From contig VGQS01000004.1 of the NCBI GenBank assembly GCA_016882285.1, forward strand, positions 1 through 48,203: 48,203 nt of DNA, written 5' to 3'. A program made the translations under genes and the position numbers. Position 1 is the first letter of the stretch. Every line of letters starts with the position of its first letter. Below are positions 11,973-22,107 of this stretch, one piece after another. The DNA comes from Cyanobacteria bacterium K_DeepCast_35m_m2_155 (GTDB taxonomy: Bacteria > Cyanobacteriota > Cyanobacteriia > PCC-6307 > Cyanobiaceae). The notes under the pieces are model-generated. The model was given only the letters and a program-made list of their open reading frames with translations, did not search any database and was not told where the DNA came from.

Positions 11973-12509
11973 TCAGCTGCGAAGGTGACGCTTGATCTGT
12001 GCCAGCCATTGACCTGGCAGATCGTTGTGCCGCAGCTCAAGCCTGAACATTGAGCGCAGCAGCGGCTGACCGCCCAGCGCAACAGCACCCCAGAGATGCG
12101 CAATCAAGCTCAGCGTGAGCAGCAGCCAGGCCAGCAGATGCACGGTGTAGACAACGGGGTCCAGCACCCCTTCACGCAGCCAATCTTCATCCATCAGCTT
12201 GCCGCTGCCGATCGCCAGAGCCAGGGCCGCTAGCGGCAGGGCATTGGCGGCGCGCCGTAGCCGCGCCTTGCCCAGGCTCAGGGCATAGGCCCCAAACAGC
12301 ACGGCAACCGGCAGCAGCAGCACACCCGCTGTGCCATGGATGTCGATCCAATCGCCGCCGATCTCCTGCAACCAAGCCCACTGCAGCGGCAGCCCGCGGC
12401 GATCGGCCGTTAGCCACACCAGCAACCCGCTCAGCCAGGCGCTCAGGACCAGCAGCGCCGTGCCCCCGTGCAGCAACCGCAACAGTGAGGGCTGATACGG
12501 GCGAGCCAT
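11973..12509 (-). CDS. Di-heme cytochrome b561-type membrane protein
   Basis: 178 residues with four membrane segments. His residues suited to two b hemes are H14 (LRLLHGGTAL), H58 (DIHGTAG), H124 (VYTVHLLAW) and H138 (SLIAHLWG). This matches the bacterial cytochrome b/b561 family that passes electrons between quinone or periplasmic donors and acceptors. It is the last gene of the sulfur operon and its ATG shares one base with the gor stop. A role in taking electrons from, or giving them to, sulfur or thiol chemistry is inference from context. Confidence 0.82.
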   Translation of the reverse strand: MARPYQPSLLRLLHGGTALLVLSAWLSGLLVWLTADRRGLPLQWAWLQEIGGDWIDIHGTAGVLLLPVAVLFGAYALSLGKARLRRAANALPLAALALAIGSGKLMDEDWLREGVLDPVVYTVHLLAWLLLTLSLIAHLWGAVALGGQPLLRSMFRLELRHNDLPGQWLAQIKRHLRS

Positions 12510-13870
12510 CAGTTCGGCATCGTCACAAATTCCTCGGCAACCGTAGGGTGCAAGGCCATGGTTCGGTCGAAATCGGCCTTGGTGGCTCCCATGCCGATCG
12601 CCACGGCCGCCATCTGAATGATCTCGGCGGCGTGATCGCCCACCATGTGGCAGCCGAGCACGCGGCCATCGCTCTGCCGTACGACCAGCTTGAGCAGCAC
12701 CTTGGGATCGCGCTTGGGCAGGGCCTGGCTCATGGGCCGGAAGCGTGCGCGATGGATGCGAATCTGGTCTGAGCCGTAGCGCTCGATCGCCTCCTCTTCG
12801 CTGAGCCCCACGCTGCTGAGCTCAGGTTGGCTGAAGACCGCACACGCCACCAGGTTGTGGTCGACCTGACGGGGTTTGTTGCCATACACCGAGTCGGCAA
12901 AGGCCCGCCCTTCGTCAATCGCGACCGGCGTCAGATTGATCCGGTCGGTCACGTCTCCAACCGCGTAGATGTGGGCAATGTTGGTTTGCTGCTGGGCGTT
13001 GACCGGGATGCGATGTCCCTCGAACGCCACACCGGCAGCTTCCAGGTTGAGCCCCTCGACAAAGGGCCTGCGGCCTGTAGCCAGCAGGACCCCGCCGCAG
13101 CCGATGCGCTCGCCGCTCTGGCTCACCACGGTGAGATCACCGGGGCAACCTTCAATGGCTGCTGGGCTATGGGCGAGGCGAATGTCGATCCCGCTGGCCT
13201 GCATCGCCGTCTGCACCGCCTCTGCTGCTTCGCGGTCAAAGCCACGCAGCAGATGATCGCCGCGCACCAGCTGCGTCACGGCCACACCCAGGTTGTTGAG
13301 GATGCAGGCGAACTCGCAGGCGATGAATCCCGCACCCACCACCACCATGCGTTCGGGCAATGACGTCAGCTCAAACATGTCGTCGCTGAGCCAGCCCAGG
13401 TCGGCCCCGGGGATCTGCGGGCGGTGCGGCCGGCCGCCCACCGCAATCAAGATGCGTTCGGCGCGCAGCTGCTGGGCTGTGCCTGCTGCATTGGCAATGG
13501 CAATGGTGTGGGCATCGCTGAAGCTCCCCCAACCACGCAGCAGCTCCACACCGGCTTTCTCCAGAAAGCCAAGGTGCAACTCGTTGAGCCGATCGACCTC
13601 TGCTCGCACGCTGGCCAGCAGGGAGCCTGCGTCGTGGCTCAGCCCACCGATCTGCCAGCCGTAGCTGGCGGCATCGGCCAGCTGTTGCTTGTAGGCCGAG
13701 CCATAAACCAGCAGCTTCTTGGGCACGCAGCCGCGGATCACGCAGGTGCCCCCGACCCGATCACCCTCAACGATGGCCACCCGGGCCCCGTGACCGGCCG
13801 CCCGCTTGGCGGCCGCCAGCCCACCTGAGCCTGCACCCAGAACGATTAGGTCGAAGTTGTTGGGATTCAC
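12509..13870 (-). CDS. gor: Glutathione-disulfide reductase
   Basis: 453 residues. FAD site GAGSGGLAAAKRAA (residues 12-25). Redox-active disulfide C43-V-I-R-G-C48 in GGTCVIRGCVPKK. NADPH site GAGFIACEFA. C-terminal HPTVAEEFVTMP supplies the catalytic His from the other subunit of the dimer. It regenerates GSH from GSSG using NADPH in the cytoplasm. Its place in an operon with persulfide and rhodanese enzymes, with a 4 bp overlap to DUF302 upstream and a 1 bp overlap to the cytochrome downstream, suggests it also supplies GSH for, or reduces products of, sulfane-sulfur metabolism (inference). Confidence 0.95.
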   Translation of the reverse strand: MNPNNFDLIVLGAGSGGLAAAKRAAGHGARVAIVEGDRVGGTCVIRGCVPKKLLVYGSAYKQQLADAASYGWQIGGLSHDAGSLLASVRAEVDRLNELHLGFLEKAGVELLRGWGSFSDAHTIAIANAAGTAQQLRAERILIAVGGRPHRPQIPGADLGWLSDDMFELTSLPERMVVVGAGFIACEFACILNNLGVAVTQLVRGDHLLRGFDREAAEAVQTAMQASGIDIRLAHSPAAIEGCPGDLTVVSQSGERIGCGGVLLATGRRPFVEGLNLEAAGVAFEGHRIPVNAQQQTNIAHIYAVGDVTDRINLTPVAIDEGRAFADSVYGNKPRQVDHNLVACAVFSQPELSSVGLSEEEAIERYGSDQIRIHRARFRPMSQALPKRDPKVLLKLVVRQSDGRVLGCHMVGDHAAEIIQMAAVAIGMGATKADFDRTMALHPTVAEEFVTMPN

Positions 13871-14286
13871 GCTTTGAGTGCAGCAGCCGACTCGATGATC
13901 GCGCGAAGGCTCTGCTCCACCTCTTTTGCCGTGGTCACAAGAGCTGCATCGCTGCTGAGTGCGCTGAGCATCGCCACCGGGCTGATCATGCCGATGCGGG
14001 TCTGGCCCGCTTCGCTGTAGACCGAAAGCCGGCAGGGCAGAGCCATGTTCAGGCGCATGTCGCGCTCCAGCACCGCCGCGGCCTGCTGGGGCTGGCAGAC
14101 CTCGTAGATGCGGCAGTTCTCGTGGAACTCAACGCCCTTGGCGCGCAGGGTGCCACCAAGATCGTGGCTGCCCAGCAGGCCAAAGCCCTGTTGCGGGATC
14201 GCCGCCTCTAGCGCCCGGCAGGCCTGCTCAAACGATTGGTCTGTGCTGACGATCACCAGCTGATCGTGAGATCTGTCTGAGGTCAT
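13867..14286 (-). CDS. DUF302 family protein
   Basis: 139 residues from ATG 14286; a GTG at 14295 and a GTG at 14256 are alternatives. Typical DUF302 features are a [26 protein letters not shown] opening and an EVCQPQQAAAVLERDMRLNMALPCRLSVYSEAGQTRIG core. The family adopts an alpha/beta fold and is often encoded beside sulfur-oxidation genes; its biochemical role is not established. One Cys lies in the core EVCQP and one in LPCRL. The gene start lies inside the 3' end of the TauE gene (about 59 bp overlap). Confidence 0.82.
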   Translation of the reverse strand: MTSDRSHDQLVIVSTDQSFEQACRALEAAIPQQGFGLLGSHDLGGTLRAKGVEFHENCRIYEVCQPQQAAAVLERDMRLNMALPCRLSVYSEAGQTRIGMISPVAMLSALSSDAALVTTAKEVEQSLRAIIESAAALKA

Positions 14287-15121
14287 GGTGGACACTGCGA
14301 AAGGATGGTTCTGCCAAGGCTTTGCTGTTGCTGCGATGGGTCTCGAGCGCCTTAGCGGCGATTAACACCGAAGAGCCGATCAGCACGGCCGCGAAACCGC
14401 GGCGCAATTGCCATTCATTGAGGTGGGGCGAGAGCCTTTGACCGACCACAGCGCCGATTGCTCCGCCAACCAGCAACGGCAACAACAACGGCAGCTGCTG
14501 CGCTGGCCAGACGCCCAGGGCTTTGAGGGCCACCAAACTGTTGAGAGCGATCAGCACCAGACTCGTGCTGGTGGCGATCTGCATGGGCAATCCGGCCAGC
14601 AGCACCAGTGCCGGCACGATGGCAAAACCGCCGCCCACGACGGAGATACCGGTCAGCAGGCCCACCAACAAGCCTTGGACGGCCAGCGGGCAGCCGGCGC
14701 GGGGTTGCATCAGCGCGCGATTGAGCGGCAGTGGCTCTGCGTTCTTTGGCTGGGGCGTTCGCAGCATCAACCAGGCGACCACGGCTGCCACAACGGCAAA
14801 CACCGCGGGCTGGTGGACATCGGTGATCACATCGTGTTTGGCGAGGGTGCCGCCGATCCAGCTACCAGCCAGTGCTGGCAGGCCCAGCACCACGGCCGGT
14901 TGGATGGCGATCTGACGGCGCCACACGCTGGGGATGCTGTTGCCGATGGCCAGCGCTATCACCACAAGCAGCGAGATCGCAATCGCTGCGTCGGTCTTGA
15001 GGCCAGTGCCAATCGTCAGCAGGGGCATCAGCAAGATCGAACCACCAGCGCCCAGCACCGCCAGCAGAAAGCCGATCACCCCACCGCCTGCTGCAAGCAT
15101 CACCAGCGTTGTGAGCGCCAT
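14228..15121 (-). CDS. TauE/SafE-family sulfite or sulfur-anion exporter
   Basis: 297 residues, eight or nine hydrophobic segments arranged as two related halves. [24 protein letters not shown] opens the first half and [26 protein letters not shown] the second, both typical of TauE/SafE (COG0730). Family members export sulfite, sulfoacetate or related organosulfur anions across the inner membrane. Here sulfite from persulfide oxidation is the logical cargo (inference from operon). The last 30 or so residues after the final segment are polar and lie over the DUF302 start. The ATG shares one base with the upstream rhodanese stop. Confidence 0.88.
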
Positions 15122-15648
15122 CAGAGCGTCACCCGGTTCCAGGGCATCACGGCCAGCAGCCGGGCCATGCCGCAGAAGCCGCTGATGCCGGCAAACATCA
15201 TCCCGGCGCCGACGAACCCGCTGAGCCAGATCCAGCCAGGAGCAGCCGCCTGGCTGAGGATCACGCCCAGCAGCACCAGGCCGCCGGCCACGATCTGAAC
15301 CTGGCGCATCAGCGGCAGCGGTGCACCCTTGCGCTTCTCAAGCGGCAACTGCGCGCCCTGCCAGGCGATGATGCCACCCTCGAGATCGGCGATGCCAACC
15401 GCCAGACCGCGCTGGCGCAGGGCGCTCACGCCGCGTTCGCTGCGGGCGCCGCTCTGGCAGACCAGCACCAGAGGCCCATCGGGAATCGGCGCGTCTTTGA
15501 GCAATGACAGCGGGATGTTGCGGCTGCCGGGAATGTGGCCGCCGACAAATTCCATCGGCTCGCGCACATCGACGATCGAGATGCGGCCGCTACGGCGCTG
15601 TTCGTCGAGCTCGTGGGGGCTGAGGCGCAGGGTGGTGGTGGTGGTCAT
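15121..15648 (-). CDS. Rhodanese-DUF2892 membrane protein (YgaP-like)
   Basis: 175 residues. An N-terminal rhodanese domain (about 1-105) has the active loop VCQSGARS with C64 as the persulfide carrier and VDVREPMEFVGGHIPGSRNIP upstream. Two C-terminal membrane segments (about 113-135 and 140-165) form the DUF2892 part. E. coli YgaP has the same build and moves sulfane sulfur at the membrane. It is the second gene of the sulfur operon, 40 bp after the dioxygenase-like gene and coupled to TauE by a 1 bp overlap. Confidence 0.9.
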   Translation of the reverse strand: MTTTTTLRLSPHELDEQRRSGRISIVDVREPMEFVGGHIPGSRNIPLSLLKDAPIPDGPLVLVCQSGARSERGVSALRQRGLAVGIADLEGGIIAWQGAQLPLEKRKGAPLPLMRQVQIVAGGLVLLGVILSQAAAPGWIWLSGFVGAGMMFAGISGFCGMARLLAVMPWNRVTL

Positions 15649-15688: not shown

Positions 15689-16801
15689 TCAGGCGCTGAT
15701 GGCGCCCTCGAGCGGGTAGCCCTCATCGGCCCAGCGGCTGAGGCCGCCGCGCAGGTTGGCGACCTGGGCGAAGCCGGCCTTCAGCAGCTGCTGGGTGGCT
15801 AGGGCCGAGCGGCTGCCGCTGTGGCAGAGCACCACCACAGGCCGGTCCCTGGGGATCTCTGCGAGGCGTTCCTCCAGCTCCGGCAGGGGGATCTCCAGGC
15901 TTTGGCTGAGGAGGCCATCGGGGCCGCTGCGCTCCTCGCGCGAGCGCACATCCAGCAGGGTCAGGCGCTCGCTGTGCTCAGCCACCCAGCTGGGGGCGAG
16001 CTCGGGCAGCCCGGCAAAGCTGCGCTGCACCGGCGCCCAGCTCGGGCTTGGAGCCATGTCGCCGCGAGGTCTGCCCGAGCGCAGGTTGGCCGGCAGGGCT
16101 TCGGCAATACGGTGCGGATGGGGAAGCTTCATGTTCTGCATGTAGCCGACAAAATCGCGCTCATTGGCGGTGCCGCCGAGCCGAGCGTTGAACTGCAGTT
16201 CTTCGGCAACCGAGCTCATGCTGCGGCCGGTGTAGTCGTGGCCTGGATAAAGAAGACAGTGCTCGGGCAGCGACAGGATCTGTTCGGTGATCGAGCGGTA
16301 CAGGGTGTGGGCGTCACCCTGCTGAAAGTCGCAGCGGCCGCAGCCCCGCACCAGCAGCGCGTCACCGGTGAAGGCCATGCTGTGATCATCGAGTACATAG
16401 GTGACGCAGCCGTCGGTTTGGCCAGGCGTGGCCCGCACCTCGAGCCAGCGGACCCCAAACGGAACACGATCACCGTGCTGCAGGGGTTGGGTCACGTTTT
16501 CGGCGCGCGCCGCTGCCGCAAGGGCGATGCCGCAGCCCGTGGCTTGGTGCATCAGCCAGCTGCCGGTCACATGGTCGGCATGGGCGTGGGTGTCTGCGCT
16601 GGTCAGCAGCGTGATGCCCAGCTCCTGAATCAGAGACAGATCGCGAGCATGCTGCTCGAACACCGGATCGATCAACACCCCTTCACCACTGGCCACATCG
16701 GCCAGCAGATAGGTGAAGGTGCCGGTCTCGGCGTCAAACAGTTGGCGAAACAGCAGCGCCGACCCTCCAGCTGCTGCTGACAAGGTGCTTGGAGCCGACA
16801 T
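15689..16801 (-). CDS. Persulfide dioxygenase-like MBL protein fused to rhodanese
   Basis: 370 residues from ATG 16801, preceded by a GAGG-type ribosome site. Residues 1-240 form an ETHE1-like metallo-beta-lactamase domain with THAHADH (H72, H74, D76, H77), D147 (FTGDALL) and H188 (YPGHDY). Residues about 265-370 form a rhodanese domain with C326 in LCHSGSRS. ETHE1 enzymes oxidise glutathione persulfide to sulfite using a mononuclear iron held by His, His and Asp. The usual TPGHT ligand His is Gln here (Q128, TPGQTDGC; codon CAA at 16418-16420), so catalysis may be altered. First gene of the operon, divergent from the ArsR gene. Confidence 0.88.
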   Translation of the reverse strand: MSAPSTLSAAAGGSALLFRQLFDAETGTFTYLLADVASGEGVLIDPVFEQHARDLSLIQELGITLLTSADTHAHADHVTGSWLMHQATGCGIALAAAARAENVTQPLQHGDRVPFGVRWLEVRATPGQTDGCVTYVLDDHSMAFTGDALLVRGCGRCDFQQGDAHTLYRSITEQILSLPEHCLLYPGHDYTGRSMSSVAEELQFNARLGGTANERDFVGYMQNMKLPHPHRIAEALPANLRSGRPRGDMAPSPSWAPVQRSFAGLPELAPSWVAEHSERLTLLDVRSREERSGPDGLLSQSLEIPLPELEERLAEIPRDRPVVVLCHSGSRSALATQQLLKAGFAQVANLRGGLSRWADEGYPLEGAISA

Positions 16802-16979: not shown

Positions 16980-17312
16980 ATGGCCCTTGCGGCGCCCTCC
17001 CCTCAGTTGCTCGATGAGCTGGCTCAGTTTTTCCGTCTACTCAGTGAGCCGGCGCGGCTTCAGCTGCTGTGTGAACTGAAGCAGGGGCCATGCGACGTTG
17101 CAGCGCTGATCGAGAGGACCGGTTTTTCGCAGTCGCACATCAGCCGCCAGCTCAGCCAGCTGCAACGCGCCGGTCTGGTGAGTTGCCAGCGCGATGGCGT
17201 TCGATTGATCTATCGGGCCGAGGACGCCCTGGTCGATGATCTGTGTGAACTGGTGCAAACCAGATTGCGCACCCGGCTGGAATCGCAGCTGGCGCAACTC
17301 GGCAAGGCCTGA
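16980..17312 (+). CDS. ArsR-family winged-helix transcriptional regulator
   Basis: 110 residues, the usual ArsR size. The opening LAQFFRLLSEPARLQLLCELKQGPCDVAALIERTG leads into the recognition helix FSQSHISRQLSQLQRAGLVSCQRDG and the wing. Cys occur at 31, 38, 69 and 89; Cys 31 sits in the first long helix near where the reactive-sulfur sensors BigR/SqrR carry a sensing Cys. There is no classical CxCxxC arsenic or metal site, so a thiol/persulfide sensor controlling the divergent operon is the favoured reading (inference). The nearby alternative is metal-type control through other residues. Confidence 0.85.
   Translation: MALAAPSPQLLDELAQFFRLLSEPARLQLLCELKQGPCDVAALIERTGFSQSHISRQLSQLQRAGLVSCQRDGVRLIYRAEDALVDDLCELVQTRLRTRLESQLAQLGKA

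Positions 17313-21060: not shown

Positions 21061-22107
<1,047 letters not shown>

Follow-up and report, generated by a model that had tools for sequence, protein, structure and literature searches.

Of 130 cyanobacterial genomes, 85 encode persulfide dioxygenases (PDOs), and E. coli cells carrying the SQR and PDO of Synechococcus PCC7002 convert sulfide to sulfite and thiosulfate (PMC7042703). In human ETHE1, a type I PDO, the iron is held by His79, His135 and Asp154 (PMC4383860). The residue corresponding to His135 in the PDO of Acidithiobacillus caldus (AcPDO), H113, has been replaced by mutagenesis. Both H113A and H113G were inactive, H113G carried no bound iron, and the addition of imidazole with iron restored neither variant (PMC6060420). 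A glutamine at a metal ligand position of the metallo-beta-lactamase (MBL) fold is known from the class B3 enzymes GOB-18 and LRA-12. These are active di-zinc hydrolases in which Gln at metal site 1 takes the place of His116, the first residue of HxHxDH, and not that of the His196 equivalent (PMC5531557).

A fusion gene of the ETHE1/PRF type

The window, i.e., the whole 48,203-nt stretch of DNA analysed here, belongs to a cyanobacterial draft genome of 165 contigs, which is 82.9% complete and contains the photosystem II reaction-centre family. On its minus strand, positions 15689–16801 encode a persulfide dioxygenase–rhodanese fusion of 370 aa, assigned to the ETHE1/PRF type by Pfam, phmmer and an AlphaFold model. 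Pfam detected a Lactamase_B domain (residues 28–188) and a Rhodanese domain (residues 270–359; 15725–15994, minus strand). The latter is intact, and its catalytic Cys326 (codon 15824–15826) lies in a conserved CHSGSR loop, as in the PRF subgroup with a C-terminal rhodanese. Alignment to residues 15–243 of human ETHE1 (4chl) placed the ETHE1-like dioxygenase domain of the MBL fold at residues ~16–245 (16067–16756, minus strand).

The closest protein of solved structure was BpPRF of Paraburkholderia (Burkholderia) phytofirmans (5ve3, 5ve4, 5ve5), matched by phmmer to 5ve3 with E = 1.8e-122 across residues 11–363, with human ETHE1 (4chl) being next. BpPRF has the same domain order and length and is ~54% identical over the whole protein, but it carries the His of TPGHT where the window protein has Gln. 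In the dioxygenase domain, the identity to human ETHE1 and type I PDOs was ~52%. The equivalents of His79 and Asp154 are kept, whereas the equivalent of His135 is Gln, GRC stands for GRT beside the equivalent of Arg163, and there is an additional rhodanese domain. AcPDO shares the iron-site architecture but has the wild-type His and no rhodanese domain (PMC6060420). The PDO of Synechococcus PCC7002 and other cyanobacterial PDOs were compared by their role in the pathway, which is the same, GSSH to sulfite (PMC7042703).

The AlphaFold model built from 32 orthologs had a mean pLDDT of 83 (36 for a single-sequence model), and its best fold matches, 5ve5/5ve3, were the same top proteins as those found by sequence. 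The MBL fold and the full-length similarity place the fusion protein in type I. As far as sequence comparison goes, it is a member of the ETHE1/PRF family by descent, which, as read, is without one of the defining iron ligands. A scan of viral sequences revealed no relatives of the fusion protein, and all plasmid matches were below 60% identity.

Glutamine 128 among homologs

The glutamine is encoded by the codon CAA at 16418–16420 (minus strand) and is located in the TPGQT motif (residues 125–129). Translation of the minus strand of 15689–16801 reproduced this codon position and all the motifs listed in the preliminary description (THAHADH, TPGQT, FTGDALL and YPGHDY). The column aligned to His in BpPRF (5ve3/5ve4; TPGHT), human ETHE1 (4chl; SPGHT) and Myxococcus ETHE1 (4ysb), in agreement with the earlier equation of residue 128 with the human iron ligand His135 (ligand role according to PMC4383860). 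The iron triad of two His and one carboxylate is thus incomplete, with His72 and Asp147 present and Gln at position 128.

The fusion gene was detected in four of six genomes of the genus (its own included) and in 111 of 300 genomes of the family, which yielded 94 distinct family sequences including that of the window. Residue 128 was His in 93 of them (77 CAC and 16 CAT) and Gln in the window alone. Among 88 full orthologs (at least 64% identity), 99 columns were invariant and the window protein differed at only one of these, residue 128. In the phylogenetic tree, the window sequence clustered with its genus-mates L045 and L046 (support 0.87), which share the genes flanking the fusion on both sides and have CAC at this position, one base apart from CAA. 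The substitution is a C-to-A change in the coding strand (G-to-T in the plus strand). The branch leading to the window sequence was longer than the median (0.14 vs 0.06), and 20 other branches exceeded it.

A wider search used a Gln pattern, PGQTxGC with [ST]GD at a fixed distance behind it, and covered the GTDB species genomes, a set of ~85,000 prokaryote genomes that may not include the window's own. The ten matches obtained were all unrelated reading frames, and no other Gln version was found. The sensitivity of the pattern was high within the family, since its counterpart with CAY for CAR would recover 84 of the 94 homologs, and lower for distant ETHE1 proteins. A sample of 386 genomes from the phylum contained the Gln pattern in one genome, the window's own, and the His pattern in 16 places in 14 genomes. 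Whether Gln might mark a clade, as the preliminary description had proposed to check, was answered in the negative by the 93 His-bearing homologs together with the pattern scans empty beyond the window. As judged from these comparisons, Gln128 is a singleton and not a variant family. A paralog or misaligned gene was also ruled out, as the flanking genes on both sides match those in genomes G004 and G001.

Departures at otherwise invariant columns were also present in 16 of the 88 other orthologs; in two cases, Y190S and T71S, an active-site motif is affected, and in no case an iron ligand. Such lone departures are thus not exceptional as a class and may be either real or erroneous. In a control performed on the same contig, GlnA, PDH beta and GAPDH together showed one departure in 494 invariant columns; it was found in GAPDH (gene 21061–22068), where residue 263 is Thr vs Ala in 19 homologs.

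The remaining active site, selection and the gene neighbourhood

Apart from residue 128, the active site is preserved. The THAHADH motif (residues 71–77; 16571–16591) with the iron ligand His72, the third iron ligand Asp147 of FTGDALL (16361–16363) and the second-sphere His188 of YPGHDY (16238–16240), all on the minus strand, were intact according to translation and alignment. The dioxygenase half retains T71, H72, H74, D76, H77, T125, G127, T129, D147, R156, D158, H188 and Y190, and the rhodanese half Cys326 and Arg331. The features by which the family is recognised, THxHADH, the Arg-x-Asp network (R163/D165 in human) and the His of YPxHDY, are all present. Next to the substrate-binding Arg, in RGCGRCDFQQG, the window protein has Cys157 (16331–16333), at the position of a Thr in human ETHE1 and BpPRF. 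This Cys is a true clade feature, as it was found in 90 of 93 family homologs. A pseudogene or frameshift was ruled out by the open frame and the retention of 98 of the 99 invariant columns.

In the dioxygenase domain, comparison of the window with its nearest relatives gave dN/dS values of 0.14–0.18, and comparison of His-bearing relatives in pairs 0.14–0.17. In the rhodanese part, the values were 0.25–0.36 relative to three genus-mates and L050 and 0.60 relative to L008. Outside residue 128, ordinary purifying selection acts on the fusion gene. The agreement of the dioxygenase-domain values with those of the His–His pairs and the intactness of the other residues indicate that selection kept the gene until recently.

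The fusion gene leads a row of minus-strand genes, which is intact. It is followed by a stand-alone rhodanese with a YgaP-like membrane segment (15121–15648; Pfam), which adjoins the fusion in most relatives, a homolog of TauE/SafE-type sulfite exporters (14228–15121) and a DUF302 protein (13867–14295), the last two identified by Pfam and neighbourhood comparison. Next come a glutathione reductase homolog (12509–13870; NCBIfam PRK06116 above cut-off), occupying the same place in L045, L046 and L059, and a cytochrome b561-like gene. Across 11973–15648, overlap or abutment was noted for TauE/rhodanese (at 15121), DUF302/TauE, glutathione reductase/DUF302 and cytochrome b561/glutathione reductase. 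Because neighbouring genes overlap or abut, this arrangement suggests one co-translated operon that includes the cytochrome b561-like gene. The ArsR–fusion–rhodanese–TauE core is widespread in the family; the two nearest relatives also have the DUF302 and glutathione reductase genes. By its predicted functions, the gene set fits the oxidation of persulfide to sulfite and sulfite export. No sulfide:quinone reductase was found among the four strongest Pyr_redox_2 matches of the genome, which were the glutathione reductase of the window and three others.

Divergently upstream of the fusion lies a gene for an ArsR/SmtB-family regulator (16980–17312, plus strand), identified by profile search. Alignment showed its Cys31, Cys69 and Cys89 to be conserved in four orthologs. 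Its resemblance to BigR was weak (46 bits, with a cut-off of 155), and the three-Cys regulator may represent a distinct type of persulfide sensor. Scanning the intergenic region for promoters yielded no hits.

Origin and consequences of the substitution

The explanation tentatively preferred, with a confidence slightly short of even, is that the gene encodes an ordinary PDO–rhodanese fusion of a cyanobacterial sulfide/persulfide detoxification operon, in which a private, recent change of CAC to CAA has crippled the dioxygenase half. In relatives, the MBL half uses O2 to oxidise glutathione persulfide, the iron being bound by two His residues and one Asp; the rhodanese half shuttles sulfane sulfur between thiosulfate and glutathione. 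The one-base change would swap one of the three iron ligands for Gln, and the altered site would be expected to bind iron weakly if at all, with the fold and the rhodanese left intact. With iron so poorly held, the dioxygenase step is predicted to be dead or nearly so.

The earlier suggestion of a weak or inactive dioxygenase is well supported by the AcPDO H113A and H113G mutants (PMC6060420). By this analogy, if Gln128 is real, a dead or very weak dioxygenase with an unaffected rhodanese would be the likeliest outcome. What tempers the analogy is that the residues introduced in AcPDO were Ala and Gly, not Gln. Decayed extra copies of the fusion do occur in relatives, which is in line with a crippling change; both G105 and G148 retain an intact copy beside the decayed one. 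The decayed copies were found in G105 (C1:790816–791436), with an internal TAG, and in G148 (C71:3134–4226), where the copy is split between two frames. By contrast, no second ETHE1-type copy was detected in the window's own genome, 83% complete with ~17% missing, which gave only a weak match elsewhere (29%, covering part of the MBL domain). A second copy that would free the fusion gene was therefore set aside, and the loss of activity would leave the operon without a dioxygenase, which counts against crippling.

A consensus base error in the metagenome-assembled contig, with CAC (or CAT) as the true codon and a normal PDO–rhodanese as the enzyme, is nearly as probable. The substitution is a one-base singleton at an otherwise invariant column of a draft genome, and the remainder of the gene shows full conservation and purifying selection, as expected if nothing were wrong with it. 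G-to-T changes, of the kind seen here on the plus strand, are a common oxidative sequencing artefact. However, the control proteins of the contig were nearly free of such departures, no broken genes were seen among those examined, and rare departures at invariant columns were recorded in other orthologs as well. For a lone one-base difference in a draft genome, a recent mutation that cripples the enzyme or a miscalled base is a more probable source than the emergence of a novel enzyme type.

A working iron site, with the amide oxygen or nitrogen of the Gln side chain as the third protein ligand and an active or altered dioxygenase, is improbable. The absence of relaxed selection in the dioxygenase domain would suit it, as would the active GOB and LRA-12 enzymes, the sole and loose precedent for the proposal that the protein binds metal differently (PMC5531557). 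In these enzymes, however, the exchanged ligand is another one (position 116, not 196) and the metal is zinc, used for hydrolysis, whereas the window protein has an intact THAHADH and its Gln in TPGQT. In addition, Gln was absent from every relative in the homolog set and the pattern scans, no compensating changes were found at other conserved columns, and the equivalent His of AcPDO could be neither replaced nor rescued (PMC6060420). Least probable is a dioxygenase half abandoned by selection in a protein that has been reduced to a rhodanese or sulfur carrier, for although Cys326 and its loop are intact, the rhodanese part is under weaker constraint than the dioxygenase domain, in which no other residue has decayed. 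The idea that the protein mainly serves its rhodanese was accordingly not borne out.

An active enzyme with a genuine Gln128 would mean that a non-heme iron dioxygenase can trade a His of its triad for an amide ligand, and the swap would fall on the very residue that the AcPDO mutants cannot spare. For now, Gln128 serves chiefly as a warning that a catalytic substitution seen only once, in a draft metagenome assembly, has to be followed back to the reads before a function is inferred from it.
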